Shown here: positions 23,352 through 60,154 of the stretch, piece by piece | How positions within the stretch are numbered: the stretch's first letter is position 1 | Layout: the number at the start of each line of letters is the position of its first letter | NCBI RefSeq assembly: GCF_000165425.1 | Contig: NW_001798996.1 | Span: forward strand, 3,072-67,071 | Source of the DNA: Paramecium tetraurelia | Lineage: Eukaryota > Ciliophora > Oligohymenophorea > Peniculida > Parameciidae | Direction of reading: 5' to 3' | Length of the DNA stretch: 64,000 nt | Notes under the pieces: generated by a model | Database searches by the model: none | What the model saw: the letters and a program-made list of their open reading frames with translations, nothing else | What the model was told of the DNA's origin: nothing | Position numbers and translations under genes: made by a program

Positions 23352-23698
23352 ATGAAAAAAGATTCTTCCACCAAAAGGCCATATGAGAAAGTCTCAAAAA
23401 TAAAAAGACAGAACCTTGTCAAGCTAGTGTTCCATCAAGGAATCAAAATAAAACATGTATTATTTAATTCTAAAAATAGGCTGCCAAACAGCTCAAAATA
23501 AACTATGCCGCTGCCAAGACTGTTATCAGTCAGCACAGATGCAATGTTATACTACATAATATACAATACAAGTCCAACCAAAGGTGTGGATTTTAGAAAA
23601 TCAATAATACTAACAGATCATTCGGCTTAATATCAAAACTAGCTGGAGAAATCGTAAAAGCTACTAGCCATACCATACCGGAGTAAAAGAATGTTTGA
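23352..23698 (+). CDS. Small helix-turn-helix protein, copy A
   Basis: 107 residues once the 23-nt intron 23457-23479 is removed; splicing joins ...GIKIKH to AAKQLKINYAAAKTVI. The N-terminus is basic (KRPYEKV). The two helices around the splice point form a homeodomain/transposase-type HTH, and a Cys-containing tail with RC-x-F and SKLAG follows. Copies B (52175) and C (59824) share these motifs and the intron position. Flanked by spacer on both sides, so a stand-alone gene. DNA binding is inferred; whether the family is a domesticated transposase fragment is open. Confidence 0.7.
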
Positions 23699-24594
23699 GA
23701 TTAACAAATTTTATTTCAAAAACTTCTTTTTCAACTATGAATTACAATCTCTTGTAAACAATATTTTTCACATTAATTTATAAATAATAAGAATAATATT
23801 CTCGAACTAATAAGTATCTTTTTAATTGCTATGTGAATAGCAATGCAAAATGAAGACTTATCAGAAATTATAGAATTTCTTATCCTTCTCATTCTACGGA
23901 TAATCATATTTAAAATTATTACTTTCAAATTAACATTAATATAACTTAATATGGAGTGTTTTAACTTCTTCCTTTAGAGTAAAATAAAATTCATCTTAAA
24001 ATAATAATAATAATAAAATACAAGAATTGAAAAGAGCATTCTATTTTAAAGTAATAAATTATATAAATTATTGCAAAACCCTAAAATTTTTTGTAGTGAA
24101 GAAATACTAAAATTATTAATAATTGTACTAAATTGATGGGTAAATTGTCAATAAATGAACATTTACGAATTTTTACTCAATCACATTTTGATAAAATAAT
24201 TGATTTAGTCCGCTGTTGATTTATAAATATATAAAATATTTAATTTTTTAATTATGATTGTAATAACAAATTATACAATTATACAAATATGGAAAATTTA
24301 TTCATTTCTAAGAATTTAATAATCTATAAATGAACAAAAAATTATTAAATGACTCTTCCTCAATTTTTTTCAATTAACAATCTAAATCCCATGTATAATT
24401 CAAGCACAATTAAAACCCCACTTATTTTAATCTCTATCTGAAAAAGTTAATGAATTAAGAGGATTACCTCAAATATTTTATGTGAATAGTGATGATTCAA
24501 CATGAATAATTCATAAATAGAATTCTTTTAATTACAGAATAAGTAAAAAAGTTGATAGAAATTGATTAAACAAAAAAAAAATAAATTAAATTAC
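23699..24594. other. AT-rich intergenic region
   Basis: Very A/T-rich with no gene-like frame on either strand. A run of TAA trinucleotides near 24001-24015 is the only regular feature. Confidence 0.5.
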
Positions 24595-25615
24595 ATGGGT
24601 CCCTATCTTACAACACCAAATACTTAGAAAGAAACGTATTAAGGAGAAAATGAGAAATTCATCTTCGCTGCTACCCATATGCAAGGTAAGATTATATAAT
24701 ATTTTGATAAGGTTGGAGAAACAACATGGAGGATGCTCATATTTCATAATTGGATATTGAGCCAGGAGTGTCTTTATTTGCTGTGTTTGATGGTCATGGA
24801 GGGAAAGAAGTAGCTATCTATGCTGAAAAACATTTTCAAGAAGAATTATTGAAAAATCCAAATTACAAGTAGAAAAACTACAAGCAAGCTTTAATTGAGA
24901 CCTTCTTGAAAATTGATGAATTATTATTTCAACCACAAGGACAAGAAGAATTGATAAAGATTAAAGGAAGTGGTGATGGTAACATTTTAAATTCATATGT
25001 TATAGAATTATAAGCTGGAGCAACTGCCAATGTTGCTTTGATTGTAAATAAGACTATTTATCTGGCTAATGCTGGAGATTCAAGAGCCATGCTATGTAGA
25101 GACAATAATCCTTTGGATTTGAGCAAAGATCATAAGCCAGATGATGAAAAAGAAAAGTAAAGGATTGAAACAGCTGGAGGTTTTGTGTAAAATGGAAGAA
25201 CAAATGGTATATTTTAGTTTAAGAAAAGGAAGTTTATCTTTGAGTAGAGCAATTGGAGATTTAGAATACAAAAAGGACTAGAAATTTAGATAGGATGAAT
25301 AAGTAATTATAGCAGTACCAGAAGTTAGAGTGGAAGAAATTCAAGCAAATGACAAGTAATCTGTATATTTAAGATCGAGATTCTTATTAATGGGATGTGA
25401 TGGAGTCTTTGAAATTTGGAGTCATAAATAAATAATCGATTATGTTAATTCTCAAATGAGGTAAGTAGTGACGAAAGAAGATATTAGGATTGCAGCAGAA
25501 GGATTACTTGACTCTGTAATCGCAAAGGATACATCAAGTATTAATAATAATTATTATCAAAGATGGTACTGGATGCGATAATATGACATGCATCATAGTA
25601 TATTTTAAGTAATGA
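24595..25615 (+). CDS. PP2C-family protein phosphatase
   Basis: 306 residues after four introns (24686-24711, 24979-25005, 25207-25228, 25538-25562). It is a compact PPM/PP2C Ser/Thr phosphatase, metal dependent. Landmarks in order: GWRNNMEDAH, FAVFDGHGG (metal-binding Asp and Gly), AGATANVALI, NAGDSRAML, LSLSRAIGDLEYK, LLMGCDGVFE and GTGCDNMTCIIV. All key Asp residues are visible. Three of the introns end in AAG instead of TAG. A further 18-nt stretch near 25356-25373 could be an in-frame intron, because splicing it removes a poorly conserved insertion. N-terminal MGPYLTTP suits a short myristoylation-type start. Confidence 0.9.
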
Positions 25616-25669
25616 GGATTTATAAGATGTTATTAAATATCCTTTTATTTTATTCTATATTGTTGATAC

Positions 25670-26659
25670 TCAAGCTTATTAAGCTGGTCTTGGACCTCCT
25701 CTTGTTTTTTATCCTGCAGGTTTTTCATTGGCCCCGTTCGATTGATTGTTGTTTCCACTTGTGTTGTTATTTCTTCTATCATCTCTTTTAGCATCTCTTT
25801 CTTCTCTATTATCTCTTTAATTTCTGTTGTCTCTATTATCTCTGTTATCTCTATTATCTCTGTTATCTCTGTTGTCTCTGTAATCTCTTCTGTCTCTATT
25901 ATCTCTATTATCTCTGTTATCTCTTCTGTCTCTATTATCTCTATTATCTCTATTATCTCTGTTATCTCTATTATCTCTTCTGTCTCTATTATCTCTTCTA
26001 TCTCTATTGTCTCTATTGTCTCTGTTATCTCTATTATCTCTATGATCTCTATTATCTCTATTATCTCTATTGTCTCTATTATCTCTATGATCTCTATTAT
26101 CTCTATTATCCCTATTATCTCTTCTTTCTCCTTTATTTCTTTAGCTGTCATTTCTTGGTTTTCTGCTTCCACTTCTTTATCTGTCATTTCTTTCTCTGGT
26201 TGGTTGGACTTGATCAGCAGGTAAGGGTTCCTAATATAAGAATTATTTATATACAAGGAATCCAGGCTCTTTTCTGTCTTATTCAGTTGGTGTCTTGGTT
26301 AGTTTGATTTGGAGGGAAGCCAAATTTTTAGTGACACTGACTTTGACTAATCCTTCCTCTAATGGTTCGTATTCTTCATTAATCTGAACAGCCTAGATTT
26401 TGTTTATTTAATATAATCCAGCAATTCTTTTTCTAACAACATCAGCAATGATGACGGCTTTGGAGATGGCATTTTCAATAGCTGTGATGAAGATAGTATC
26501 TTCAACGGGAGGTTGATCTTCTCTACGAGGACCTTACAAAAGCCACAAAGCTTTTCTGACTTGGCTTGACAATTAAGCTTTTGTAGCTACTCTAATGACA
26601 TTAGGATTAGGCTTTTAATCCTCAACAACAATCCTGTGATACTTTCTTTTTGTGGCCAT
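25670..26659 (-). CDS. Alba-domain nucleic-acid-binding protein with RDN-repeat tail
   Basis: 321 residues after removing intron 26231-26254 (24 nt). Residues 1-110 match the Alba fold: IRVATKAQLSSQVRKAL, IFITAIENAISKAVIIADVV and KRIAGLYQINKIQAV. After the intron comes an Arg/Asn/Asp tail, more than 30 units of RDN or RDH from a 9-bp DNA repeat, then a Gly/Asn end with TRGGPRP and TGA 25672-25670. Alba proteins bind RNA or chromatin; Arg-rich tails, usually RGG, add RNA affinity. Here Asp alternates with Arg, which is unusual. Both strands of the repeat are free of TGA, so long antisense ORFs appear that are not genes. Confidence 0.8.
25815..26130. repeat. 9-bp coding minisatellite in the Alba gene
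   Basis: Tandem units read as tctctatta/tctctgtta variants on the plus strand, encoding Arg-Asp-Asn on the minus strand. Units differ mostly at third positions, so the array is kept at protein level. Local base composition differs sharply between strands (C/T on plus, G/A on minus). Confidence 0.85.
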
Positions 26660-26720
26660 ATTAAATATTAATACAAATCTTTTTTTTGAGTAGCAAAAAA
26701 ACTGTGTAATATATATATTA

Positions 26721-28811
26721 TCATTTTTCTATCTTCATTCCTTTATACCACATACAATTAATGACTCTGCCATCCTTGTAAATGTATTTTCCTTTACCAT
26801 GACGCTCCCCATTCAACCATTCTCCAAAAAATAATTTACCATTGTGGTATTCCACCCTTCCTTCTCCAACTTGTTTGTCTAACTCAAAACTAAACTTACA
26901 TGATTTTCACTTTACTTTCCAATAAATATGTTCCCATCTGGACTTATCAGAGTTCCTCTTCCATGCTTCATCCCCTTCTTAAATGACCCTTCATATCGAG
27001 ATCCATCAATATTGACTTACAAACCCTCTCCATCTATTTAGTTGTTCACAAAAGTGCCTTAATAATAAGATCCATCCGGTTGTATCAACTTTCCAAAGCC
27101 TTGCTTTTTCCCCTCCACAAATTGTCCTTCATAATAGAGCCCATCCGGCCATTTTTATTTGCCATATCCATTTTATTTATCATTCTTCCAATTTCCTTCA
27201 TAAATAACTCCGTCGCTGTTAGTAAATACACCATGTCCATTAGCCTTATCATGTTTCCATTCCCCTTCATACACATCACCTTCGCAACTAATATATCTTC
27301 CAAATCCATTACATTCATCATCCTTCCACTCTCCATCATAAATTGATCCTAAATAATTTTATCATTCATTAATTTACCATCTTTCCATATCAATTTCCCC
27401 TATCCTTCCCTCTTCTACTGAAACAGCTCTCCTATGTATATACTCTCTAATAATTCACTTAATATTTACTGTCTGACAATGTTAACTAATACACCTTCTT
27501 GCCGTGAGATCTATCGCTACCATTCATAGATGTATCAGTGATATGGCTATTGTAAATTGACCCATTCCTGTGTTCGATTTCAGTATTCTTATGCAAAAAA
27601 TTGTCAATTATTGCCTTGTCTTCCTATAAGTCTAACCATTTCACCCTTTTCCCTTCAGCCCACTCTCCATACCTATATTCACCAGAAGGAGCCTAGTACA
27701 ATCCAATTCCATGTTGTTTTCCAAGTTTCCACTCCCCAATATATTTCCTACCATCATTCCAAATAAATGTTCCTAATCCTTATTTTTTATCATCCATATA
27801 ACTAATGTAACTCTAATTTAATACCCTCCTTCATATGATCTGCCATCCGCCCAAATAGTCTTGCCCATTCCCCACATCTTATTATAGACCCATTCTCCTA
27901 CATAGCTTCTCCCATCAGTCCAATGATGTGAGCCATATCCATGTATGTCATCCATTTCAAATTCCCCTTCATAATAGGATCCATCTTGGAAAACTAACTT
28001 GCCTTTCCCATTCTTCTTCCCTTCATAGTATTCACCCTCATAGGAAGCACTGTCGATCCAAGATTCCTTCCCGTAAATATGTTTTACACTATTTTTCCAA
28101 TATCCAACATAGGTGGCACCTTATTAATAAAAGTATTCTCCAAATCCGAAAATATCCCCTTCATGCCAATAACCACAGTAAATATCTCCGTTCTAATAAG
28201 TTTTCTTACCAAACCCATGTTGTTTATTATTCTTCCACTGGCCTTCAAAAACAGATCCTAATTTTGCTTTAATTTTGTTACATACCATCTTAAAATTTTC
28301 CAATACCCAAGCCATGCTTCATGTCATCAAGCATTTGGCCATCATATTCGATTTCTTCTGAAATGATGCGTTAAAAGCTAAATTTTGTTTGTATTTGTTA
28401 TGTGATCTTTTCGGATGTGTATATTTTATCCAATGATTGATTTAGTAAATGCTCTAAATCTTCTTGTGGGATGGTTTTTGAACTCTAAACAATTTGATTA
28501 TTCTCAATAACGCAATCTATGTTCTCGCCATCAATCTTGATTACTTTTCCAAGCATTTTATGATCTTCCCAATATCCTTCAAAAATAATACCTTTTTTAG
28601 ATTGGCTAAATTACCATTTGGATATATTTGAATTCCTTTGCCATGTCTTTAATTGTTTTTCCATTCGCCCTGATATATGGAATCTAATGATTCAGGCATA
28701 AAATACACCATCTCCTAAGATGACTTTCTAGTAAAGAGAATATTCGGATTCCTGTTTGAAGGATGCGGCTGATTGTTAGGAGGTACAATTTTGAAATTCT
28801 TGTCTAGACAT
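26721..28811 (-). CDS. MORN-repeat protein
   Basis: About 660 residues made of MORN repeats: YQGEWKNNQRHGKGIQIY, YDGEWKDDECNGFGRYI, YEGQFVEGKKQGFGKLI, FFGEWLNGERHGKGKYIY and many more. Introns 28684-28706, 28258-28285, 27802-27824 and 27349-27377 join repeats in frame. MORN proteins organise membranes and cytoskeleton, often in cilia and basal bodies. The repeat series is broken by one-base slips at 28593-28598 (T6), near 27482-27486 and near 26895-26902; at each, one inserted base restores a perfect repeat. End is TGA 26723-26721. Confidence 0.82.
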
Positions 28812-28847
28812 TAATGATAAATTAAATTATAACTATCAATTATAAAT

Positions 28848-30306
28848 TCATTATAATGTGGATGCTAATTGAATTATATGGTCATTTTATCTGAGTTTTT
28901 CCAAATGTTTGAAACCCCCTAATTTTTCAAATATTTATTTTGAGTTCTCATCAATAAATAAGTGAAGTACTGCTTTTAAAGCCAAATAGATTGCGTTTGG
29001 ATCATAGATCTCTCTAAAGAAGTCGACTAATAGATTGATGACTCCATTGTTGATTAGGTCCCCATAAAATGTAGGATCACAATTGACAATGTAAGTGGAC
29101 ACAAAGTAGCCTAATTCCAATTTCATTTTAAGATCTGCCTTCTCATACTATTCATAAATGCCTTGAAAGAGCACTCTCAATTCATTATGAAATCCTCGAT
29201 GCGTGGCTAGATTAGAGAACGTAGAATAGACCTTGACCTAATGATTAGAGTTCTTGATTCGGAACAATTCATCCACAATTGGATACCCAAGTAGTAGCTA
29301 TAAAAATAAATCAAGCTACATACATCAAGGACTTCATCTGATTGGTGACCTGAGAGATAGTTGATAAAGTTAATTGAATGATTGGGGTTAGAAAACAATT
29401 TCATGCAAAAAGCTCTGTAAATAGTTAAGAATTGTGCACAATTGTAATCTTTAATCATCTCGCAGAGCCCATTTACACTCTCAAATCTGATACAATTGAA
29501 TATAAAGTCTAGGATTTTTTGAAAATTCTCGTTTCTAGAGTTGGAACAAAAGTTCTTTATTATGGAGGCTGCTAAATTCATAATCATTTCTGAATTCTGT
29601 CTTTTCAAACGATATAGGAATGCATCATAGAAATTTGAATCGAGGAGAATTCGATCGCAGGCCTGTTCTTCTACGGTCATATTGTAAATCAATTCAAAAA
29701 CTCTATGCAAGATGACTTCATATTTTGATTTAATGAGAAGGTTGATTTGGTTAAGGAAATGACCATTGCCGTAATCCAATAAATAATTGACGCAATCATC
29801 TGCCAGTGTTAGGTTGATCAAAATCCATAAACTGTTGTTTGTTAACTCCACTGTGTTGACATCATCTGCGTAGGTTGGAGAGCAGTACTTAATCAATTCA
29901 GGCATTAAATTGTCTTGCTTTAGAGATGATAGTTTACTTTTGATGGAGTTGTAGAAGTCGTTGATGTACTCTTGAACCTTCATTGAAGCCACCTTCATGC
30001 TTAAAATTTTAATTTATGAGAGAACCTAAATGTAATTTATGTTGATGTACTAGGGTATTTCGCTCTGGAAATAGTTTGTACTCCTCATATAATTCTTCCA
30101 GCTTTTGAGCGATTTCAGAGATTGTTAATCCAGATTCAAATAATTAATTTAACTCTTTGATTCAAAATATACTCATTACTCTCATTGAATGGATTGCTTT
30201 CGTAATTGTGATTGCTATTTGTTATAATCCTTTTCTTTTTGAAGATCTCTTCCCTCGCAGATTTTTAAATGGAATTTCTAAAATACTCCCTCTTTAATTT
30301 AAGCAT
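28848..30306 (-). CDS. Importin-alpha-like armadillo-repeat protein
   Basis: 460 residues, exactly in frame after removing introns 30155-30179, 30026-30050 and 29298-29323. The N-terminus is a basic helix (LKREYFRNSIQKSAREEI followed by FKKKR), like an importin-beta-binding domain. Helical repeats follow, with NNSLWILINLTLADDCVNYL and MNLAASIIKNF typical of ARM units, then LGYPIVDELFRI and a last repeat ending at TGA 28850-28848. Expected role: adaptor for nuclear import of NLS cargo. The repeats are divergent, so another ARM protein is possible. Its ATG is 11 bp from the ATG of RSP9 on the other strand. Confidence 0.68.
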
Positions 30307-30317
30307 TAATTATTATA

Positions 30318-31236
30318 ATGAATATTTCATTCAATGATTTGAAATTTGTACAACAAATAGGCCAGACCCTTAATCTTGAAGAGAGGTACTCAATTTTATT
30401 CATACAACCAGAATGAGGATACAATTGGCAATCCTTAAGATCCAGGAACATTATGTTTTTGATGAAGTTCTATTTTGGGGCAGAGTTGAGGGAGTCGAAA
30501 AGGACTATTACATAGCTCTTGGAATTCAATATAAGGGCCAGTACGACTTCCCATTGAAAAAATTCTTTTGGAGGTACAAAAACATCCATTTTTTAATAAA
30601 GTTCCAATAATTATCATTTTGCCGAATTACCAAAATATAATGAAGAATTTGCACAAAGAGCTGAAACCTTAAGAGAGCCCTTTACAGGATAGCATGAACA
30701 CATAGTATTTAGAACAGATGAAGAAATTAATTTTGAGGACTCACTAGAAATTCCTGCGTAACTGCCAGCTAAAAATTTCTCAGAATTGGAGAGACTATCC
30801 TATGTAGTTTAATCAATTGAATTTCAATGTGCCTCAATTCCAGTGGGCTCATACAGATTGACTCCAACCCATGAATTAATCAAGACAACATTCAAGGGAG
30901 TCACTGCAGAATTGAAAAATTACTAGCATTTCAGATAACCCATCAGAAAGGATAAGCAAGATCTCATAGGTTTGCCATATTGATATCCTTTATAGCTCGT
31001 GATGAAGCACTATATAGACCTGACTTCTTAGATTCTTTAGTTGACGATACACCTTATAATTAATGGTCTGTTCAGACTGACTCCACTAAAAGAAATGTAA
31101 ATCACAATTTAATTTGTAGATCACAATTAGAAACTTAATTTGGCCAGGATATTTAAGTTACAATAATGACTATACATTTGGATATGCTTATTTTGGGGAT
31201 GGGATTAAAAATTCGGATTTTGAATTTTTATTATGA
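30318..31236 (+). CDS. RSPH9: Radial spoke head protein 9
   Basis: 271 residues after four introns (30386-30411, 30574-30601, 30970-30995, 31097-31119), close to the usual RSP9 length. Diagnostic stretches: VFDEVLFWGRVEGVEKDYYI, FAELPKYNEEFAQRAE, GSYRLTPTHELIKTTF, ALYRPDFLDSLVDDTPYNQW and the C-terminal WPGYLSYNNDYTFGYAYFGD. RSP9 is part of the radial spoke head that passes central-pair signals to axonemal dyneins. The third intron begins GTT, not GTA. The gene shares an 11-bp spacer with the divergent importin-alpha-like gene, so the two promoters must overlap the 5' ends of both. Confidence 0.93.
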
Positions 31237-31292
31237 TTTCCAACATATAATATATTTTGTTATGTGTTTTATTATTATTATTATTATATAGG

Positions 31293-31620
31293 TCAATGTC
31301 CTAAACATTGATTGATTGCTTCTGAAGCATGTAAATTTACCTATTAAGCAACATAATCATAATAGGCTCTTGATCTGTGTGTGTAAAATCCATAGACTTA
31401 TGAACCAAATATCATTGATCCAACGAATCTAACATATTTACTAAAATTACCTTGGTCCTGTTCTTAAGTATGTAAATCTTCTTAACACAAAGTATGATAA
31501 AACTGCTGTTCCCAATCCAAATTTAAATCCAGTGCTCTCCTCCTATTATAAATCCAAGAAGGCAGTCTTGATATTTTGAACATCGTGAATGTCATATTAG
31601 AAATCTTTTTCTGCACTCAT
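31293..31620 (-). CDS. Small membrane protein of about 100 residues
   Basis: 101 residues after removing intron 31429-31450 (22 nt). It begins MSAEKDFQYDIHDVQNI and has two hydrophobic segments, FGLGTAVLSYFVLRRF and FVGSMIFGSQVYGFY, separated by TYLRTGPR. Size and layout suggest a two-pass organelle membrane protein, perhaps mitochondrial, but I do not recognise the family. It converges with RSP9 (57-bp spacer). Confidence 0.55.
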
Positions 31621-31845
31621 TATTAATAAATATATATATTAATGTAAATACTCTAAAATTAATAATCACTATAAAATATAAATGTGTCCTCAAACCCAAG
31701 AGATAATAACTAAAACTAAGTGGCGAAGTACATATTATCTGTTTATGCTTAAATTGTAGGATTCCCATAGGTATAAAGGTTAAAATTAATCAATCCAAAA
31801 GTAAAGATACTCCCTTCTCAATATTTCAGTCAAGATAAAAGCCAT
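31617..31845 (-). CDS. Possible very small protein upstream of the membrane protein
   Basis: MAFILTEILRREYLYFW... continues through a candidate 22-nt intron that begins with GTACTTCGCC and ends in TAG near 31709-31730. The frame then ends with TGA overlapping the ATG of the next gene. About 70 residues, no family recognised. Codon quality is gene-like, but the start is a guess and this could be 5' sequence of the neighbour. Confidence 0.28.
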
Positions 31846-32032
31846 AATCTACTTAAAGTAGAATTCTAAATTAGTAAGTCTCACAATATCAATCCTCTTT
31901 TTTATGATAATATAAAAATAATCTAAAATTAGATTTGATTCTTTTATTATTCCTATTAGTATAAACCTTTTGTGTTTAATTCCTTTTAAATTCACTTAAT
32001 TTCAATATCCTTATAGATTTCAATTTCTAATT

Positions 32033-34669: not shown

Positions 34670-34694
34670 AAAATAATTAAATAATCAAAATTAT

Positions 34695-37600
34695 ATGGAT
34701 TAGCAATTATCTGGGGTGCTCATAAAGAGGGATAAATGGAAGGCTGAGAGTAAGGTGACGAAGTGTGAACATTGCGACAGACAATTCTACTATTTGTTTA
34801 GAACCAAACACCATTGTAGGAAATGTGGATTGGTATTTTGTTCGGAGTAACATTATCTATATATTATGGAATAGTTGTAGCAGCAACTTCATCGATGGCA
34901 TTCATTTCGCATAAAACACAGAGAAGAAAGTAAGATTGTGTGGAGTTTGTTATGATTAAGTATTAAAATTGTTGAAAGCATAAGGATACAAATTAGAAAA
35001 TGCATTTGAAACCAGAGTGGTCAGTGTGTCTATTGACAAGGGGTAATTGAATTTATCGAGAAGAGAATCGATACATAAATTGGATGATCAATCCTACTCT
35101 ATCTCCAGATCACAAACCACTCAAGTGACTGAAGAATAGGAGGATAACATGAATAATGATTAGGAATTCAATCCTGAGATCATTTAGGTGAGTATACAAA
35201 GTTATTTTCCCCCTGAAGAGTAGAACAAAAATAAGGAATCTGAATTATTGAAATCCTAATTGTCACTCCTGAAAGAAAAGTGTTATTCTTAAATGGAAAA
35301 TATTTGTGATCATAGTTTAAAGATCTTCATTCAACCTCAACGCAATCACGACAACCACTTCGAAGGACTCAAATCAACGACATTTGAATTTGTGAAGCGA
35401 GCAGTTGAGGACATTTAGTTTTCATCTCTCAACTCCGACCCATTGGACATCACTTGCTATGTGAAAACCAAGTTGCTCCCATACAAGGATTACTCATTGA
35501 CTTGTTACTTCCCAGGAATTGTTATCAGAAAGAACATTGCGTTGAAGAGAATGTAAACTGAACTCTACAAACCTCGTATTTTGATTATCCATGGGAATCT
35601 GGATTTCATAGAAGAGACTTAACAATTTGATGATTTCATATTGAAAGAAAAAAGAGTGCTCCAAGATTACATCGAGAAAATTAAAGAGAACTTCAAGCCT
35701 ACCATTATCATCGTTGAGAAATCAGTCAGTAAAGTGGCATTGGATATTTGTTGCAAATTCAACATCACAGTTGTTCAGAATGTGAAGATCCATCAATTAA
35801 GAAAGATAGCCAAATGCACAGGTTCTAAATTTGTGCGTCTAGACAAATTGGATGGCTATATACAGAAGGAGACATAGGTGACTGGGAATTGTGAGAAGAT
35901 TTTCTTTCGCAATTTCCCAAGGCCAACTCTTGACAAATAGGATGTAAGTGGAAAGGATAATACACTGATGTTCATTGAAACAAAGGACGGCAAGAATGGA
36001 GTGACAATTATGTTATCAGGACCACAGGAAGATTTACTATAAAAATGGAAATAGTGCATTGTTGGATGCATGAGATTGGGCAAACACTTCGATGTGGAAA
36101 GATACATAATAGTGTGTGAGTAGAAATTAAGATAAAATAAACAATTCAATTTTTGTGTGGGTGATTTTACAAAGTTTTTACATGAAAAGGTGAATCTCAA
36201 AGAAGTCATCAAACCTGATCTAGCTTATGTAAAAATTAATTATGCTAGAGCAGACATTCACAACTTTAATGATATCAAGGACATGAATGCCCTATTGGCT
36301 TATTAAAAAGAGTTTCCACCTCAGAAGGATAAGGTGGTTGACTTCTTTGCTGATATGTGCAACATGCCAACTGAGAAACCCAAGGCTTATTATCAATCAA
36401 ATGATGATATGTCCATAGGTGCATTCATCATTCTCAAAGTGGCTAATCTGCAATTCAGATGCGAATATTGTAAATTGCCCCGGAATAGTCATGTTTCCAT
36501 CTATTACAATGCTGGCAGATATGTGAAATTCAGTGTGGATGGGTCGATGAATCAAATCAAATAGATAGTGTTGCAGAAGGAATAATCGCAAGTTCAGCAG
36601 AGTGATGAGAATAGAACATTTCTATTGAAAGACTTGCCAAGCATCATCAAACAGAATCATTCCAATGAAAAGATATAGATTGAAACTTACTTCGAATGCA
36701 ATCTCTGCATGCAACAACTAACAGATAGGGTCATCTTGAGTTAGAAATACTTGGAGTACTCCTTCTTAAGATTCTTGTAGCAATTGTTCCTCACTCAAAA
36801 CAATAGTACAAATCAATTTCAGAATGCAACATCATGCAATCACACTCAAGTGTAAAGAGTCTACTCCTATTACGGGTATCAGATGAAAGTGATGGTGGGG
36901 GAATTCGATGTCTATCAAACTACCTTGTTGAATTTCTCTGATAGTTCATTAAGTGATCATCTAAAAATTTGGGAGTAGAACTACATCAGACAACACAGAG
37001 ATGAATTGATGAATAAGTTGAATACCTTTGGAATTACATTGATCAATCTCATACCCAAATCATTAGCCAAAGGCGAGATTGATTTACTCATCAAATCAAT
37101 TAAACAACTCAAGGAGGAATGCGAGAAGATACTGGCTGAAACACAATACACATCAATCTTTTAAGTTCTCAAGTAGTCCCAAGACTTTGGACTCCAGTAC
37201 AAGAACATCATGCAAAGTATCCAAGAACACAAGAAGAAGAAGGAATTGAATCCAGATTTTAAAAATATCATACAGAATGCTGCTGTGAATTTGAAGAATC
37301 AAGATTCCATCTTAACCAATAACACCAATACCATCAAGACTACTTATGAATTAGAGAAGGTTGATTCTGGAAACAATTTAAATGAAGTCAAGCAGTATCA
37401 TTCGAATTAAGAATTAGAAGAACACCATCTCCAATCAGGATAAAAACATTCATTATAAGAAATTGAAGAAACAAATCATAGAGAAAGTTCAGGAAAGAAT
37501 GATTTGAGTGATCTTATCATACCACCCAATTTTTCATCTGACGCTGACATCCAATAGTCACCTCTATTTGTTAGAAATCACAGAAGAAATGGATCTGAGA

Positions 37601-39170
37601 TTCAAAACAACTACGTCATTAATTTAGTTGATGCCAATCAAGGGTTACAACAATCCATTCAAAAAACTCATCATGATTCCAATAAAGACCTTGACAATGT
37701 GAATATTAACCAATCTAACAATTTCATCCCTGCTGTCGATGTCAATTAGAATAATAACTTCTAAAAAGAATGGAATATAAGTTCCTTCCTTGCAGAATAA
37801 TAGAAATTGATCAAGTCTCAGATGATTTATGTAAATGTTTATTCTTTACTCTAGGAATTTGTTCCAATCTACGAGAATCAGCCCTTATCCTATTTATCGT
37901 TCACACTCAATCACCCCAAATACATCAATGAAATTTATCAAAAAGAAAGTAATTATGCCCATTATTAACTTAAGATTTTGGCATGATTGAGTCTGTTCAA
38001 AAATCATCTGAGTAGGCTAAACTGTTCTTCTAATAATTATTATCCCCCAAGGAACAGAAGTAAGAAGTTGAAAACATCAGATACATGAGTGTTGATTTAG
38101 GTAACAATAATTTAAATCAATAATAAATATATTAGAAATAGGATAATAGGGACATCTTTGTATTGAAAATCAATTACGATGTTGAAAAAAAGAATGAAAA
38201 ATCAAATACTTTGATAATGCAATAACAATAAATCTAAAACAACCTATCCTCTCAATTTGATGATGCTCAAACACTATAAGAAAAATCATTACCATTAAAT
38301 AATCCTTAATAATTTGTACCCACTGCCCAAGCTAGAAAAAACAAGTGGATTGAAGTGTTAATCTACTTTCCTACTCAATTTGAAGCTCTTAGATTACTTG
38401 CAGGAATCACCTTAGCTTAATTCATCAAATCCATCTCATCCACTAATATTTGGAGTGCATCTGGAGGTAAGTCTCAGTCTAAATTCTACAAATCCAATGA
38501 CGAGCTATTTGTATTCAAAAAATTAGAATAAGACAAAGAGTTTATGATGTTTAAACAATTTGCCCTAGACTATTTCAAACACATGTACAGACACTTTTAT
38601 GAATCCAAACCCTCTCTATTAAGCAAAATCTTTGGAATGTTTGAAATTAGAGACAGAGGACAAACCGAGTACTTTTTAGTCATGGAAAATCTGTATTTCG
38701 GAATGGGTGATCCCTCTAATCTCCTGGTGTATGATCTCAAAGGAAGTGAAACCAATAGACTAGAGAAAAAGAAGAAAGGAGTTCTTTTAGATACGAATTT
38801 CAGAATTGACAGAAATTCAGAACCCATACCTATTCTCAAGGAAAATTACAGATACAACGACAGAGCATTCCAAGTACTCATTTCATTCTTATTGTAGATC
38901 GATTGTAAATTCCTAAATAAGCAAAATGTTATTGATTATTCATTATTATTGATCATCGACTAAAAGTAAAAGAAATTGAGGATGGGTATCATTGATTATC
39001 TAAGATTTTACACTTGGGACAAGGAAACCGAACATTATTTAAAATATTTATTAAAAGGAGGAATGGTATTGCTTTGAACTAATAGTTTATAGGTGCCCAC
39101 CATTGTTAATCCTGGAGATTATAAAAAAAGGTTCATTAATGCAATATTAAAATATTTTATACCAGTGTGA
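34695..39170 (+). CDS. FAB1: FYVE-type phosphatidylinositol 3-phosphate 5-kinase (Fab1/PIKfyve)
   Basis: About 1473 residues with introns 34847-34874 and 39066-39092 removed and one base added near 37972. Domain order matches Fab1. A FYVE zinc finger comes first (CEHC, KHHCRKCG, CSDC, CGVC; the usual WxxD is replaced). A TCP-1/GroEL-like domain follows (about residues 200-430: YFPGIVIRKNIALKRM, LIIHGNLDF). A long linker precedes the C-terminal PIPK kinase with ASGGKSQSKFYKSNDE, DLKGSETNR, VIDYSLLLI and MGIIDYLRFYTWDKE, ending near VPTIVNPGDYKKRF. Enzyme: makes PI(3,5)P2 on endosomes or lysosomes, controlling membrane traffic and osmotic balance, relevant to contractile vacuoles. Confidence 0.93.
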
Positions 39171-47848: not shown

Positions 47849-48115
47849 TTTATCAATTAAACGATGATTATTGTATTGTTAATTAATATTATAATGCAAA
47901 GAAAATAAGTACAACTCATCTTCGTTAATTCATCTTTGTTCATTCATCTTACACTCAACCAATTTAGAGATTCTACAATCATTCTATTACTTTATTTAAA
48001 TTATTAATAACAGCACATATATTACAATAAAAATTCTACTCATAGGAATCTTTATCAAAGGTTTTCGTTAAGTAAATTAAGTAATCTGCGAAGAATAGAA
48101 TGTATTAAGGAGAAC

Positions 48116-49646: not shown

Positions 49647-49868
49647 AATGACTAAATATATTAATTACTAATTTTATTAATAAATAAACACAGATATATA
49701 TATATTATTAATAACAACATTATTAATCTCAATATTTACATTCGAAAGCTCTCAGAAGAGAGATATTAAGGTTAAATAGAGTAATATAGAAAAAAAATCA
49801 GCTAATAACGATTTTAATGAAATTTATCAAGTGATTTTTATAAAAAACCAAATTATTTCGCTATAAAG

Positions 49869-50911: not shown

Positions 50912-51925
50912 TCAAAAGATATCAATAAGGTCTAATTACAATGATTAAACTTTTTAAAGATTAGCGACTTCCTTGACATATTCTTGAATTCCAATTTATT
51001 TGTGTTTATCAATGATGTGTACACTTCCAGCTAATGAACCCCTTGCGATGTTATTTTCATCATATTGACCCCAACTTACACAATGGATATCCTTCTTATG
51101 TAATTCTCTGTCTATACTTTATCTAAACTCCAACATTTCCCTCCTCCTATTCTCTAATCCCAAAATAATTTATCTGTTTTAACAATAAGATTCTAATTAT
51201 TCTGATTAAGACATGTCTTCAAATTCTGCTTGATTCCCCTTCAAGACCGTTCTTCTTATCTAATTTAATTGAATCGTTTTACATATGCTGCTTAATTCTC
51301 TTGCTTGTGAATAAACGATTGATAATCATTAATATCCCACAATACAATTTTACAATCCTTGCCTCCGCTTCCTAATTTTTATTCTTATGACCAATCCAAA
51401 GCAGTTGAATGACCCTGTAGGTATATCTGCATGTGGGTCTTTTGTATTTTATTGTGCTTTTTTTTTGTGACAATCCACACAAGCACATTGCTATTGTAAC
51501 TCTTCGTAGCAATTAATTTTTGAGTAGAATTGCATTTGATGATATTTACATCTCACCGATGAACAATTATTTGGCTTATTTTAAAATGAGAATTATTATA
51601 AAATTGCAATTGCTGGAACACAAAAGTAACTTAGTGATTTATGTGATATTTCACTTATGGGATGTCTGGATACTCATTTTAGATTACCTACAGTAGTCAC
51701 GATTAATTGACAAAGCGTTTATTTCCATATATTGGTAAATTCATCATAAATTCCATCTGTTTTAATGGCAAAATATACTTTTTGTCTAGTGTATTTTTTG
51801 GATTCAATCACAATTAGTCCCCATTTCCAAGAAGTAACTGGCCAGTCTATGGCGTTTTATATGTGAGATCTGTAATGCAAGCCCTACAAATCTCAATTGT
51901 ATTATTTAGGAGTTAAATTATTCAT
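50912..51925 (-). pseudogene. RBBP4/MSI1-like histone-binding WD40 protein, disrupted
   Basis: Recognisable RBBP4/MSI1 segments are all on the minus strand. The N-terminal binding helix reads HIQNAIDWPVTSWKWG (compare HALEWPSLT...W). A blade reads NIIKCNSTQKLIATKSYNSN followed by VLVW. Another reads GHSTALDWSQE, then KIVLWDIND. The last blade includes HKKDIHCVSWGQYDENNIAR. This family chaperones H3-H4 in CAF-1, HAT1 and PRC2 complexes. Frame is interrupted by in-frame TGA at 51895-51893, where Trp is expected, by another near 51560, and by at least two frame changes. Either a decaying copy or a poorly sequenced gene. Confidence 0.6.
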
Positions 51926-52174
51926 GTTGGATATCAATAATATTGAAATTTATATTTATTTTCCTTTGATTAGAAATATTAAGCATTTTCATGTTCAATT
52001 AGGCTTCTCGACATTTATTGTATATCTAACTGGGATGATGACTGTTTTTTGAATTGACTGAACACGTTGAGGTAATTAAGATGACTTTTCTTAAATTCGG
52101 ATATTATAAATTAATTCTAAACAAACCATACTTCCCAAATCATTCTGTATTAATTAAACAAGATTTTTTACAAA

Positions 52175-52599
52175 ATGGATTAAACTTACAAAAGAAGCAA
52201 ACGAACATACATCAAGAGTTCTTTGTAAACCAGAAAACTTTTAGCTGAACTAGTCTTAATTTAAGGACTCAAAATAAAAAATGTAAGAATTTCTCTATCT
52301 CTATAAAGGCCGCTAAGAAATTACAGATCAAGTATGCAACTGCGAAATCGATCATCCTATATTACAGGTAGAATGTAATTAAGAAATAACAGAATTACAA
52401 ACCAACAAAGCAATGTTCTTATGCTTCAATTAAAAGTGCTATTACTTATACTATTGTATCGAAATTAGCAGGGTAGCATGTAAATTCAAGATGTATTCAC
52501 TTCTTAAACGTTACAGAATCTAAAAAATGAATAAATATATATTATAAATGAATTATTATTGGTGTGATTTTCATAGTAGAGGAAAACATCAAAAGTTGA
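52175..52599 (+). CDS. Small helix-turn-helix protein, copy B
   Basis: Begins MDQTYKRSKRTYIKSSLQ. The 26-nt intron 52283-52308 joins LVLIQGLKIKN to AAKKLQIKYATAKSIIL, the same intron position as copies A and C. Then come KQCSYASI and IVSKLAGQHVN, matching RC-x-F-x2-I and SKLAG in copy A. The C-terminal end is uncertain; the continuous frame stops near 52599 (about 132 residues). Flanking DNA is spacer. Predicted DNA-binding role from the HTH only. Confidence 0.68.
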
Positions 52600-53008
52600 T
52601 TCCATAAGTAGAAGGTCCTTGAGTTTGTAATGTTATTTTAGTATTTAATGGTAAGTAATTTATTTCTTAAAATTTTAATGATAAATTCTAAAGGTCATTT
52701 TTATTTTATGTTATTTAGAAATCAGGATATCCGATTGGTGGATGAATCAAGTTTTTGGTCTTAAATTTCATAAGAATAATCTTAATTCAAAGTAAGTAAT
52801 TAAAAAAGATTATAAAATTAATTGTAATTAAACTGTTCCTTATATATGTAAATCTTGGTTCATAGTAGTCATGCGGGAACAATAAAATAATATCAGAAGT
52901 ATTTCTATTATTATATATTAAATTATACAATAATTTGTAATGGGTCATTGTACAAGTTAAATTTAACATAACAAATCTCCTCAAAAATAAAATCCGAAAA
53001 CACTTTCA
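52600..53008. other. AT-rich intergenic region
   Basis: Nothing recognised; upstream side of the C2-like gene. Confidence 0.45.
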
Positions 53009-55990
53009 ATGGGAACAATGAAATTCAATAGTGAGCTATTTAATATTAGATTGACTCATCCATCTAAGTCATGCTATCTTAAAATTGATATCGGTGGATA
53101 TTTCAAATGCGATACTCCGAAGCATTTCGACTTAGAGGGCAAACATGGTGTAAGATTGCATAGTTATATAATAATAGTGGAAGAGAAAAATAACATTGCA
53201 ATTAGAAGCGAGTGAATTATAATTGAAGGAAAAATATTTGGTTTTCTTTCTGTATGAGGATGATAAAGAACTGTCTCAATTGAGGATTGCCTTGTATGAC
53301 ATTATTCAGGGGCCTCAATTTTTTGATTACCAAATAGGTAAGGGCAGATTGTCGTTTAATATGATAATGGCTTAGATCCTTTAATTAGAGATAAACCCTT
53401 AAGATATGATATGCACAATGAACACATGCATATAAGAGAAATAATATGTATTCAATTTGAGGTTGGTGACTCGAAAGATGCAATTCCTCTCAGAAAATTC
53501 AGAGAAGTTTAATAACCCTGCTTTCATAAGAGGCAGAAGTGCATCATACAATAGCATTCAGGATGAGTTATTCAGAATACAATGGCTGAGCACAGAAATG
53601 CCTCGATTGATAGTGGAATTGCCAATGAATGAGATCTCAAGTTCTTCATTGTAGGTTTGCATTTGGAGTATAAATAAATCCTTAGAGGATCATTCCCCAA
53701 CTCGAAAGTCTGTCAAATCTCTAAATTTTCATGTGGAATCAATAGAACAAGTGTTGTTTGCTGAATCGAACATCGCTCTAAATTATTTGCTATAGAATCA
53801 GGAGGAATAGATGGATGATCATAGTATTCACAGATGCAATATAACCAAAGGATTGTGGTTAAGAGGGAATAAGATCGGACAGATGCAATCAGACTTTAGG
53901 ATTAAGATTCCGGTGTATTTGAAATAATAGATGATTGGGTTGAGAACGGAGAAGGGATGCACTATAGGGACAGGTATATTAGCAAATTAAAGCATAAAGG
54001 AAATTAGTGAAGTAGTAAATCACTTTGAGAAATTGAGTTAGGTAATGTTTAAATTATCATCCAACAATCAAGATTCATAAAAGTAGCAATTGATGACTGA
54101 ATTGCAGAACTCGGCTTAGTAATTGTTGGTAGTGGTGAGTAAAAGTGATAAAGATTCACAATTGCGATAATTTTATTACAAGAGTTATGATGATTTGATG
54201 AAGGGCTAGGAGATATTCATAAAAATTGCAGAGAATCTCTTGAATTTTGTGGACAAAATAGAAGGTAATATTAGAGAGATCTATTATGACATTTTATTAA
54301 TTGTATGCACTAGAGGTGAATTAAGTTTAGGGTCAATGGGATATTTTGATGATTGCAAATAATTAAATAAAAAGCAATTGAAGTTTAAGAGTCAAATCTG
54401 TTGTCATTTTTAATAATTTCTATATAACACATTAAACATTGCTTTATAAAAGATCTGTTTGAAAGCTATGTCTCCTAAAGAGAAGGCATTCGTTGAAAAA
54501 TTCTTGGTGAGTTCATTTTTCAAAGTTCCTGAATTTAGGGAAGCCTTTGTTAATGCGCTGCAAAATCCAAATGATCCTGAATTATCGGAATGGCGTGGGA
54601 CTGATTATTAATTAGATGACCCTGAGAATTTCAGAACTGAACAAATCACGGTGTTATTTGATTGGCAGAGTTACTTTTACAATTATTTGCCTTCTAATTT
54701 AAATATCAATGCTGTTACATTGACTTCAGATGAAGAATGGCGTAGGATCATTGCTAAAAGAAACACAACATTCTTCTTCCTTGTTTAAGCTTTATGTTTA
54801 CATATCTAATAAAAGTTCTAAAAGGACATCATTCCGTGGAAGGATATTCCTGGATATCGAAAGATTTTGAAGACTCTATTGTGTGAATTAAAAATAAGGG
54901 AATCATATCCTGATGCTATGATCAATGCAATCACTCAGGTTGTTACTAATGGAGGTCCGTTGAATGTTATTATTATGATATTGTACAATAAAACTAAGTA
55001 AATACTTTGTAGTATATATATTAATAGCATTTTTTCGAGTGATAGAGTTGTCCATGTGATGGATTTGATAAGTTAATGTATATAGCAATGTTAAGCCATT
55101 CCAACTAACTTTGATTACCCATTTTTTTTGAATGGATTGAGAGTGGCAGTTACTCAAAGTGAAAACGCTTATGTGATCGCCAAGAGTTTGCACTTAATCT
55201 ATAATAACTATTTAGTATTCCCATTAGAATTTAAAAAAGCCATCGTGGACTTTCTATTTGAAGGTCAGTGTTATGAATTGTTTTTGCATTGGTCTAAGAC
55301 CGTTAGGAGTGTTTATATCAGTCTACTGATCTATCGAATTTATCATCTCCATAGAAATAACAAGATTCAAATTACAGATGAAAATTAATTTGACAAATAG
55401 TACTTCCAAATTACTAAACCAAAAAGATTGCAGAGTTATTACGAGAATAGAAAGGAGGAGACTCAATTGATGGTATCTGATTAATTATTTTTAGTTAGAG
55501 TGACTATATTTATTTGAAGTATTCTAGATTTATGATGAATATTGAATCAGCCAAAGCCAAATTCTTCAGTAAATCTTTAAATAAAGAATTGCCGTTGGTG
55601 TAAAGGATGAAGATGAAATTAGAATAAAAACTGAAAGTCGAAGGTTCATCTTTTAGAGATTTGGTCATTTGTGAAGAATAGAGCAAAAATCCAATCACTG
55701 AAATGGATAAAAGAATAATCTACGAGAGAAAGATAGAGTTCAGGAATCCAAACAAAAAGAAAACCATTATCCTCAATGATAGTCATATCAGATATCTTTC
55801 TACTGCTTTGACTGAATACAACGAAATGCAAAAACAATACACTAAATGGAGATAATAGAACATTGCCTCTGTTTAGGCTTCCATTCAAGGAATGACTGAT
55901 GAAGAAAAAGCTGCAAAACTCACCTAGTTCCCAGTTCCACAAATAAAGCTCATGCAAACCTATGACATGAAGGAAGGCAAACAGGATTGA
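53009..55990 (+). CDS. C2-like large cytosolic protein, partly DUF1765-like
   Basis: 977 residues after removing intron 53150-53177 (28 nt) and a 20-nt element at 55500-55519 (GTG...AAG) whose removal restores frame. N-terminal 140 residues look like an NT-C2 or C2 domain: FNIRLTHPSKSCYLKIDIGG, KHGWKRKITLQLEASELQ and LVFFLYEDDKELSQL. The middle is helical. A conserved-looking block at 54500-54780 reads SFFKVPEFREAFVNALQN, SEWRGTDYQLDDPENF and VLFDWQSYFYNYLP, recalling fungal DUF1765 proteins. The C-terminus is charged and helical. Likely a lipid-binding scaffold; function unknown. Confidence 0.65.
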
Positions 55991-56073
55991 CATTGTATTA
56001 TGTTTTCACTAAATTATTTGATAATATTATGTTTAACATTTTCATTGGCATTTTTGGTCCCAATAATCAAATG

Positions 56074-57400
56074 TCACTGCAATATAATGTTATTATATTG
56101 CTTATTTGGTTAACTTTGATTTTACATCATGTTGACCGTACTAGTTGTTTCTAGTTTTGGTTAACATTGAATAAACATCTGATATTAAAACATTTTAAAT
56201 AAATGACTAATATCTGCTAATGTATACAATTATCCCATGTTATTTGAACATCCCAAGCACCTTGGACACAATTGTGGATTAAATTGAACACCAGGTTAAT
56301 TTGAATTACAAATAAATTACTATTCCTATTATTAAATAGTTCCCAATTATTCTTATTACTCATTCACGCCTAATAATAACTATTATTATTGATTAATCCC
56401 AAGCTGCCCATATTCCATTACAAATTTTTAGAAGGCTTCGCTTTAATATTAATACTATTGATGCAACAACTCTTAAGGGTTATATTAATTTTCATTTTTA
56501 TTTGGTTCTTCCTTGACAAATACTTCCTCGGATACTTAGTTCTTTTTTTCATCCATATCTATATTTTCTTATTTCACATTAATCGATGTGCATTTCTTCA
56601 CCTTAGACCGAGTCATTCTATCAGCAGCATCCAATTTCAAAGTCTTTAGTTAGGATTTCTTTATTTTAATAGAACTATTTATAAATTTATATTATTTGTT
56701 TTTCTTTTTCTTTTTATATTTTGTAATATTTAATGAATCTTAAGAATCTTCCTATTGGTCATCTTCATCAGATTCCTCTAGATCAGATTGATACTTTCTT
56801 TTTAGGTTGGCATAAAATCTATTTTTAACCATATTTTCCTAATAAATAAGTAAAGGATATTACAGGACGACCATTTAAAAAAGTGGAGATATAACTCCAC
56901 TTAGTTCCAAACTTCTTGTATAGTCTCAAAATTATTTTATCCTCCTCATCAGTCCATTTCTCATTGTTAATATGTCCTTAGAGCTGATTTAGATAACGTT
57001 CTCTAACTTGCTTTCCAGTTCTCCAATTCATAACTGTGCATATCTTACTCCATTTTTTCCCATACTTCTGCACCAATTCCTTTAATTATTCATCCTCCTC
57101 TTGGGACCACAATTGTCTTTAAAGCGTCTTAAATCAAATAAAAAATATTACATTTTCTGGATGTAATGATTGCCATTTCATCATGCACTCAAGTGGGTTT
57201 GGTCCGTTTAAATACTTACTTATCGATTTCCAATTCCCCTATTGACAATCGTACTGTTCGTTCAGTTTCTCAACCTCTTCAGCCGTCCAAACATAATTAC
57301 ACTTTTTAGTTAATAAATTAGAACAAACCTCATAAATGCCTTCCGAATTAACTCTGCTTTTCATCTAGTTGGATGCAGCACTAATCTCAGATGTAATCAT
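56074..57400 (-). CDS. Three-repeat (R1R2R3) Myb DNA-binding protein
   Basis: 425 residues after introns 57128-57151 (ends AAG) and 56839-56863. Repeat 1 (from residue 37): WTAEEVEKLNEQY...NWKSISKYL. Repeat 2: LWSQEEDEQLKELVQKYG followed by KWSKICTVM. Repeat 3: KWTDEEDKIILRLYKKFG followed by KWSYISTFL, then MVKNRFYANLKRK. Tryptophan spacing is that of animal c-Myb and plant 3R-Myb. A basic KYKKKKKNK stretch and a Gln/Asn-rich tail with CNSNQPG and CPRCLGC follow. Likely a transcription factor, perhaps of cell-cycle genes as in other 3R-Mybs. The ATG overlaps the stop of the upstream frame. Confidence 0.9.
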
Positions 57401-58557
57401 TTCTTTTTTAAAAAATATTACATAAAATCAAACTCGATATCACATTTAATACTAAGAAATGACAAATTATACTTTATTCCAATCTTTAATTTCTAATTAC
57501 ATACATGTATACAAACACAATCTACAATCATGCAACTCTAAACAGAATCATTCAAATAATAAATCATTAACGTAATATTTTCAATTCCCATTAAAATCAT
57601 CTCAAATATTATTATATTTATATCAAAAAAGCTCCATAATTTCGTTTCCAAATTAAAGATAAGCTTAATTGGCTCTTTTAAAATCACTTCTTCTATCCCA
57701 AAATCAATAATACTTTTCAAACCTATTATAATCATTGACATCACCCTCCTCTTTGTGTCATTCTTTAAATGGCTAATTTGTTCACACTTCCTAAAGCCTT
57801 CTCCCCCTTCATACAAATCCGTCTATTGTATTAGAAAATGTAATTCTAACTTTTCATTTTCTTTCAAAAAATAGATTGCCAAAATTTTCATTATGTCATA
57901 ATAATACTCTAATGTTTCTCGGGATAATTGAACCATTATTTGTATTTTATTCGAACATAACTCGCTGAATTATAGGTAACTTTGCACCATTTAACAAATT
58001 AGGTCTAACTCTAAACTCAATTTATAATACAAAACTTTTTAGAAGAATAGAAGCAATCTCAAAAAATGTCAACATTATAGAATATTAGATTTAGGTTAAA
58101 GATTTATACCTTTTAACAATCATCTATTACTACTATTTCTCTACCGTTATTAATTGTAATATACATATATTCATTATCATATATTAATATATAAAGCACT
58201 ATATGATCAGCAACATTTAAGCAGCAGCGGTGACTTAGATTAAATTTATTGACAGCTCTCCACAAAAATATTGAAATAGATTTATGTTATCAATTGTTTA
58301 AATGTATGCTGTCCTGGTAGTGCACTTGTGTTCCCACCTTTCTTTAATTTAATTTAATTTTGTATTTTTTTCTAAATCCTCATTCTCAAGGACCATGGTA
58401 TCAATAGTCTTATTGTCTTCCCCACTTGGTTTTTTTTATATTTAATGGCAAACAAAACCAAATGTCCTATGTAATATGTCCTTTCCCTCTTTTCTATTAA
58501 TCTAAATTGTCTATCAATTATGGTTTAGTGTGGCAAATTTCTATGTTCCCTCCTCAT
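57397..58557 (-). CDS. Putative gene upstream of Myb, unknown
   Basis: Protein-like minus-strand text begins MRREHRNLPHQTIIDRQF (ATG 58557). It passes through PSGEDNKTIDTMVLENED and IKERWEHKCTTRTAYIQ after a slip in an A run near 58430, then a frame change leads to LELDLICQMVQSYLQFSE. The last 180 codons (57936-57397) are one clean frame: ETLEYYYDIMKILAIYFL, HLKNDTKRRVMSMIIIGL and LWSFFDINIIIFEMIL, rich in hydrophobic helices. TGA 57399-57397 overlaps the Myb ATG. No family recognised. Confidence 0.4.
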
Positions 58558-59823
58558 CTTATTTTTCCTTTTTACAACTTACACTATCTAATATAAATAT
58601 TCTTATTAACAATTTTAAATTTCTATTTCTTAAAATAAATCTTAATCCTCACTCAATAATAATGATATTCAATTTAACTGATTCTTACTTGTAGCTTTGT
58701 CTTACTAATCCTTCATACTACATCTTTATCTTAATTGCTCGTTGTTTGCTTATATTAATTGATATTAAATTATCAAACCTTATTTTATTTCATCTAAAAA
58801 TTTATTATTTTTTAGTTTTACTTAAATTGAGTGGAATGATATTTATATCTTTCAGCTTAATTTTCTCATTCATTCCAAAACAATATTAAATTTGTATTAT
58901 TATTCAAAATTTTCAGAAATGATAATTTCAATTCTGATGTTTAGCGTGAACACTAACTTTAGAAGTAATTAAAACTTTAATACAATTAATTCTAAGATTA
59001 AAAGAAAGAATAGATTATTTGAATAATTGAGTAAGACTGATTTGAGTAAATAAATTGATTTATTTAATTATTAAAATCTAAATTCAATATTAATATAGAA
59101 ATTTTAAGATTTTTTTACATAAACTCAACTTAAGTGACAGGAATATTGGTGTTCTAGTGAATACTTAAAGTAATTGAAATAATGGAATGTTGAGCGCAAA
59201 GTGAAAGAAAAGCTGAAAAGTTAGCTTGTAGAAATCTTTATTTAAGATAATCAATTTTTGCAAAGCACTTAGTATTTTCTTTAAATTTGAATAATTCATT
59301 TTGAAATATTTAAGAAATTAGCAAGTAAGCCTATAATGGAATATTTTTGAAATTCGTTTATGGTTACTTAAATTTGATAAAAATCGAACTTGACACTATA
59401 TTTAATCAAAAATATGGATTCAAAAGTTTGTGAAAGAGTAAGAAAATTTCTTTATTTATTAAATAATAATATATATTAATAATAACAAATCCATATAGAC
59501 TTTTCTCATACAAGGAGTGATTTTAGAATTAGAACGCCATGAATCCAAAGTATTGAAATTATCAGAAATTTGAATCAGAAAAGAAAATCAAAAATATTTA
59601 TTAAATTCATAAGTTCGCCAAAAATTTTGATTGGTTACTTTAACATCGGTTATTGTAATAATAAAAAGCTCGAAAATCTGTAAACAATAGAAGATATTAT
59701 TGGGGATTCTTATTAATAATTATCAAAATATGAATAAATTCGAGGATTGATTTTTCTTTATAAATTAAAATCAGCCAAGTCTTATCTAATAATTTTTATT
59801 ATTTTTCAATTTGGAAATCTTAT
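58558..59823. other. Long AT-rich intergenic region
   Basis: Over 1.2 kb with no supported gene on either strand. Mostly A/T runs; nothing structured noticed. Confidence 0.45.
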
Positions 59824-60154
59824 ATGAAACAAAGTACTTAATCTATTCTCAAGTTACGCCCCTACAAGAAAGTGCCTCAAGATAAAAAAAAGCAACTAGT
59901 TGAACTGGTATTTTAGAAAGATTGGAAAATTAAAAAGGTCTCTATTTATTATTTAGCAATAGGCTTCACTCTACCTCCATATCAATTACGCTACTGCTAA
60001 GAACGTCGTTCTGAAATATAGAAAGTTTTCCATTCAAAAAAAAACCTCAAAGCTTCCAGAATCCAAGAGATGCTAGTACAAACTAATTGGATTATCCAAA
60101 TCAAGAATCTAAGTTATAAGTAGTAAGGGAGGAATACAATAAGGGGATGTATGA
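59824..60154 (+). CDS. Small helix-turn-helix protein, copy C
   Basis: 101 residues after removing the 25-nt intron 59938-59962 (GTC...TAG). The sequence before the intron, RPYKKVPQDKKKQLVELVF with KIKK, and after it, ASLYLHINYATAKNVVLKY, align with copies A and B without gaps, and the intron sits at the same codon boundary. A later KRCQYKLIG matches the Cys motif. The TGA at 60152-60154 may be in intron sequence, because readable text (YVETIQPEKVVYSPQED) continues to about 60415. The most divergent of the three copies. Confidence 0.6.

Follow-up and report, generated by a model that had tools for sequence, protein, structure and literature searches.

What are the three small genes that lie scattered along a 64,000-nucleotide stretch of Paramecium tetraurelia DNA, and what might their proteins do? 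The stretch analyzed here, called the window, spans positions 3072-67071 of contig NW_001798996.1 (C43 in the following) in a genome of 69 Mb and 231 contigs. Spliced models confirm that genes 1, 2 and 3 are real and that each has one tiny intron at an equivalent site. They belong to a large family in the window's own genome, whose members are short proteins that probably bind DNA. We think it fairly probable that they encode nuclear DNA-binding helix-turn-helix (HTH) proteins of about 100 residues, which would act as regulators of transcription or chromatin and would read a similar DNA motif.

Three genes with one tiny intron each

All gene models were read with the ciliate code, in which TAA and TAG encode glutamine and TGA is the sole stop. 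With one intron removed, genes 1 (23352-23698), 2 (ATG at 52175, end at 52530) and 3 (59824-60154) each terminate in TGA and give proteins of 107, 109 and 101 residues. Their parts are the following.

23352-23456, plus strand: gene 1 exon 1, with the N-terminus, RPY, predicted helix 1 and GIKIKH; over the protein, the paralogue on contig C205 has 88% amino acid identity
23457-23479, plus strand: gene 1 intron, 23 nucleotides (nt), GTA..TAG, phase 0; identical in site and length in the C205 paralogue, and not a multiple of three
23480-23698, plus strand: gene 1 exon 2, with AAKQLKINYAAAK (helices 2-3 by homology), the RC motif, the C-terminal region and the TGA stop
52175-52282, plus strand: gene 2 exon 1, with the N-terminus, RTY, predicted helix 1 and GLKIKN
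52283-52308, plus strand: gene 2 intron, 26 nt, GTA..AAG, phase 0; likewise 26 nt in the C205 paralogue
52309-52530, plus strand: gene 2 exon 2, with AAKKLQIKYATAK, the QC motif, the C-terminal region and the stop
59824-59937, plus strand: gene 3 exon 1, with the N-terminus, RPY, predicted helix 1 and DWKIKK
59938-59962, plus strand: gene 3 intron, 25 nt, GTC..TAG, phase 0; at the identical site in the C205 paralogue, which has GTT..TAG and 22 nt
59963-60154, plus strand: gene 3 exon 2, with ASLYLHINYATAK, the RC motif, the C-terminal region and the stop

The three proteins have in common the order RxY, (G/D)xKIKx, intron, A(A/S)xxLxI(N/K)YAxAK and, C-terminal to this helix motif, (R/Q)C; the introns fall between KIKx and A(A/S). 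The intron of gene 3 is irregular in that its donor is GTC and a second acceptor, which would give a 19-nt intron, is also in frame. An earlier note, made from the DNA letters alone, had placed three genes at these positions of the plus strand, with a 23-26-nt intron between KIKx and A(A/S) and the motifs in this order. The spliced models bear this out. Of the size given there, about 100-130 residues, the smallness of the proteins holds, but the actual lengths are 101-109 residues.

The genes belong to a large family

Searches of the window's own genome with spliced gene 1 retrieved gene 2 at an expect value (E) of 1.8e-6, and gene 2 retrieved gene 1 at E=6.9e-7; because each retrieves the other at such values, their likeness is beyond chance. 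Gene 3 is an outlier. Gene 2 retrieves it at an E of only 0.016, it was not among the matches of gene 1, and the matches to gene 3 itself included neither gene 1 nor gene 2. The gene 3 query found copies on C205 and C72 (E 3.8e-18 to 5.7e-14), and a member on C212 retrieved genes 1, 2 and 3 at E 4.3e-5, 2.0e-8 and 1.9e-5, respectively. Gene 3 is tied to genes 1 and 2 through such members beyond the window.

The match counts are lower bounds, and intron-split genes match exon by exon. At E≤10 genes 1, 2 and 3 gave 27, 43 and 23 own-genome matches, two further members 34 and 47, and the domain of a sister group (see below) 54; one more member gave 49 at E≤1. Six of the seven match lists, one of them from the sister-group domain, were merged by place, by hand, and that of the C212 member was not entered. 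The merged list holds at least 69 distinct loci at E≤1e-3 and at least 55 at E≤1e-5. The large genomic family suggested earlier is found in this tally, sister group included. The same note had considered that a genome search might yield no further members and no sign of purifying selection; instead, further members were found, and 14 of 14 pairs evolve under purifying selection. A fourth copy lies about 4 kb beyond the end of the window on the opposite strand (G000:C43:71333-71662). Tandem pairs of members occur at G000:C191:263400-264700 and G000:C153:184660-186000, the whole pair being duplicated between the contigs.

The intron site is shared by the family

Thirty short members (94-150 residues; three models are cut at the 3' end by the fetched piece) were modelled by allowing zero or one GT..AG intron and keeping whichever model matched the family profile best. 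A phase-0 intron at the equivalent site, 22-30 nt in length, is present in 30/30 models. The donor is GTA in 26, GTT in three and GTC in one, only GT having been required by the modelling, and the acceptor is TAG in 23, AAG in five and CAG in two. For 22 of the 30 introns the length is not divisible by three; the exons of these genes therefore lie in different frames, and the reading frames need the introns. When paralogues are compared, six of 13 pairs have introns whose difference in length is not a multiple of 3, and therefore at least one copy per pair needs splicing to join its exons. As a control, the identical modelling placed an intron at the site in none of seven intronless sister-group loci (L016-L018, L024-L027).

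The family introns, for which GT..AG was required by the search, fit the short-intron norms of Paramecium, with TGA as the sole stop. According to excerpts of the respective papers, more than 95% of Paramecium introns measure 20-34 nt and GTA/TAG is termed canonical (PMC11334263), about 98% of the introns in P. tetraurelia measure 20-30 nt (PMC5485702), and only GT..AG is conserved in introns of this ciliate class (PMC5014332). The GTC donor of gene 3 departs from the canonical form. Seven of the 30 introns (L005, L006, L007, L008, L009, L013, L083) are translatable multiples of three, a type that is counter-selected in Paramecium as stated in part of one of these papers (PMC5485702); their retention would add 8-10 residues between helices 1 and 2.

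The equivalent site is also used in five of six short sister-group loci (C200, C170, C31, C171 and C229; by its best model C189 does not use it), although the short-family profile gives four of these five no more than 9-21 bits. Because of these loci, the intron may predate the split between the short and the sister group and have been lost in the intronless proteins, or it may have arisen twice. At C12 one piece failed (L085) and a longer piece (L100) was modelled, which is in the tree described below and outside the 30; the matches at C61:81996, C212:272176, C57 and C154 are outside the modelled set.

Selection has acted on the duplicate copies

We analyzed the ratio of nonsynonymous to synonymous substitution rates (omega) in 14 paralogue pairs with a codon model (GY94, F3x4, code 6). 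The value omega=1 was rejected in 14/14 pairs, with p between 7.8e-6 and 1.8e-12. Eleven pairs are unsaturated, with synonymous distances (dS) of 0.57-1.82 and omega of 0.099-0.218; in the saturated pairs f/go, l/lo and r/ro dS is above 7 and the omega values are unreliable. Regional values were pooled over 13 pairs, with f/go (not a best pair) left out and the saturated l/lo and r/ro included. Omega was 0.135 in exon 1; within exon 2 it was 0.079 over the first 20 codons and 0.253 beyond them, so that the putative recognition-helix segment is the slowest-evolving part. All 30 short members have the same residue at each of seven HTH positions (Tyr, Leu, Ile, Ala, Leu, Tyr, Lys); a C-terminal Cys occurs in 28 and a Gly in 25 of them. 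The whole protein is constrained, and most of all the part expected to touch DNA. To judge from these pairs, selection has kept the duplicate copies working.

Relationship to known HTH domains

The link to a known fold comes from the sister group. Proteins of this group in the same genome score 24.3-38.3 bits against HTH_28 (PF13518), six of seven over its cut-off of 25, and 22 own-genome loci exceed this cut-off. When a profile of 17 short members was compared with 12 sister-group HTH segments by hhalign, the two aligned over 46 columns with 43% identity and an E of 3.7e-14. The HTH character of the short family is supported through homology, namely this profile-profile link to proteins that pass HTH_28. 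An unrooted tree of 47 HTH segments (50 columns) splits the short and sister groups with an ultrafast bootstrap of 100; several deep nodes within the short group are weak. The HTH segment ends in GR in 16/16 rows of the sister group and in 0/31 rows of the short group.

The short family aligns over the whole HTH with the sister group, but its members reach at most 14.2 bits against HTH_28 (0/20 over the cut-off), lack the terminal GR and carry a Cys/Gly C-terminal piece of their own. By homology the family is an offshoot of a known class of folds; it stays under the Pfam cut-offs and has an additional C-terminal piece. A description of the short HTH family was not found in the literature search. 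HTH_psq (PF05225), which had been named earlier as a fold to compare with, is likewise a small HTH expanded in one lineage, and an excerpt of one paper gives it as the source of pogo-derived regulators in animals (PMC10027918). HTH_psq had no own-genome match at E≤0.001 in a search that ran exon by exon, where an intron inside the HTH could hide a gene, and four of seven sister proteins match it at E 0.038-0.052, below the cut-off.

Several observations weigh against the view that the short family consists of HTH proteins with a common intron. None of 20 short members scanned singly passes any Pfam cut-off. Their best score is 19.7 bits to Sigma70_r4_2, another HTH with a cut-off of 25.7, and the next is 18.3 to that same family; HTH_Tnp_1 (PF01527) reaches 17.6 bits at best (cut-off 24.1). 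Several members match only unrelated Pfam models, at chance level, or have no match. The HTH claimed in the earlier note is thus upheld by the profile-profile comparison, but not by a single-sequence Pfam match among these 20. Sequence searches of the PDB with gene 2, the short-family profile and the sister-group profile gave nothing convincing or above chance. AlphaFold models of exon 2 alone, from the three window sequences, were of low confidence and uninformative, with a predicted local distance difference test score (pLDDT) of 53 and one long helix followed by coil. At four fetched loci the best model lacked the family intron: C212:243640 (L084), C33 (L092), C183 (L088 and the longer L101) and C189 (L094, sister group), none of which enters any intron count. 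Finally, models selected because they match the family profile will tend to share one intron site; it is therefore the independent facts, i.e. the reading frames, the GTA donors, the length differences within pairs and the control, that carry weight.

Possible function and alternative explanations

In the reading that we prefer, each protein would have a single HTH domain of three helices, the first encoded in exon 1 and the other two in exon 2, and after it the conserved C-terminal piece with its Cys and Gly motif. The IxYAxAK helix would lie in the major groove of DNA, and the C-terminal piece may form a dimer or bind a partner. The members would be transcription or chromatin regulators that recognize a similar DNA motif but act with different partners, in different dosage or at different times. 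The reading helix shows little variation, and the paralogues are therefore expected to bind similar DNA; for the same reason a set diversified in DNA reading, as had been suggested earlier, is disfavoured, the putative recognition-helix segment being the most conserved part (omega 0.079).

As stated in part of a 2025 review, similarity searches find no basal transcription factors in Paramecium or only highly divergent ones (PMC12716044); by our own extension of that statement, the gene-specific regulators are just as poorly known. A large family of HTH miniproteins under strong constraint, overlooked at the Pfam cut-offs, would be a candidate set of gene-specific regulators. A much bolder proposal, which we regard as a long shot, is that some 30 or more HTH miniproteins with a nearly fixed reading helix and a C-terminal module not described before form a hidden core regulator class of Paramecium. 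Their paralogues would compete for one motif, expression would be set by dosage and partner, and retention of the seven introns that are translatable multiples of three would serve as an off-switch. A link of the family to the mating-type regulators of Paramecium, mtB, described as a putative transcription factor, and mtC, stays a lead; the literature searched gave no mtB or mtC sequence or domain.

A possible, albeit doubtful, explanation is a domesticated transposase HTH, meaning that a transposase of Tc1/mariner or IS-like type would have lost its catalytic part and kept its N-terminal HTH, which now serves as a host protein. The sister group has weak matches to HTH_Tnp_1, HTH_SB (the Sleeping Beauty-type HTH, PF25787) and an IS481 leucine-zipper model, all below cut-off; among the 20 short members, three have an HTH_Tnp_1 match at E≤1, also below cut-off. 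In an excerpt of an Oxytricha paper, HTH_Tnp_1 is recorded as the only further domain of transposase type that was detected in Paramecium and Tetrahymena and not in Oxytricha (PMC3558436). However, the three window proteins end at 101-109 residues with no catalytic domain, and none of 20 window frames scanned (632 frames listed) matches transposase models at E≤0.001. Unlike the transposases with HTH_Tnp_1 or PF25787, in other words, the family consists of short stand-alone genes under purifying selection in which no catalytic domain is seen. HTH_28 does not mark transposons either, because it is matched in 14/14 control prokaryote genomes, in 10 of them above the cut-off. Furthermore, the sister-group profile has no confirmed relative among viral or prokaryote contigs (0/21 pattern matches in viral contigs and 0/36 in prokaryote genomes confirmed).

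HTH folds can also bind RNA or protein. An unlikely alternative is therefore a role other than DNA binding, in which the HTH makes protein or RNA contacts, for example as an adaptor in chromatin or in the genome rearrangement of macronuclear development. The C-terminal piece is constrained too (omega 0.253), and the GR at the end of the sister-group HTH is absent from all 31 short rows; both points are in line with such a role. The putative DNA-reading helix, however, evolves slowest, which speaks against it. That the genes are decaying duplicates or chance reading frames, not working genes, is most improbable: the donor of gene 3 is GTC and not that of the GTA/TAG form, and the HTH tree gives it a longer branch than its C205 copy (0.25 vs 0.09), but only GT..AG is conserved in this ciliate class according to the excerpt cited above (PMC5014332), and every one of the 14 pairs shows purifying selection, the pair with gene 3 among them (omega 0.19, p 4e-7).

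Duplicate blocks on C43 and C205

On C43, genes 1, 2 and 3 are found at 26, 55 and 63 kb and the fourth copy at 71 kb. Their closest relatives lie at 185, 212, 219 and 223 kb of C205, with order and orientation kept. Two flanking genes show the same picture: the relative closest to the DUF1765 gene 3' of gene 2 is at C205:213361 (86% identical), and that closest to the Cpn60-domain gene, which lies between genes 1 and 2, at C205:196992 (88% identical). Because the family copies and these two flanking genes are collinear, the copies on C43 and C205 are best read as whole-genome duplicates; they would make a good case for how duplicated regulators are kept. Together with the genetic code and the tiny introns, the duplicated blocks are in keeping with a Paramecium of the aurelia group. 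A second set of family copies is found on C72 and C212. An older duplication that would join the C43/C205 blocks to those on C72/C212 is not supported, the next relatives being located on C164 and C178 for the DUF1765 gene and on C172 and C159 for the Cpn60-domain gene instead.

Other frames in the window

Two adjoining frames at 34759-39077 (plus strand) contain Cpn60_TCP1 and then PIP5K, the first with the 88% identical copy on C205; this is the layout of the Fab1/PIKfyve lipid kinases. A frame of 1069 residues at 34-3243 (minus strand) passes the cut-offs for the SecA DEAD, SecA P-loop and SecA cross-linking domains, i.e. parts of a bacterial-type translocase in a gene with ciliate code. 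A DUF4215 repeat protein with five stretches lies at 3844-6831 (minus strand) and an Alba-domain frame at 25670-26734 (minus strand). Two TLDc-domain frames, at 9050-11527 and 20144-21115 (both minus strand), occur within about 12 kb.

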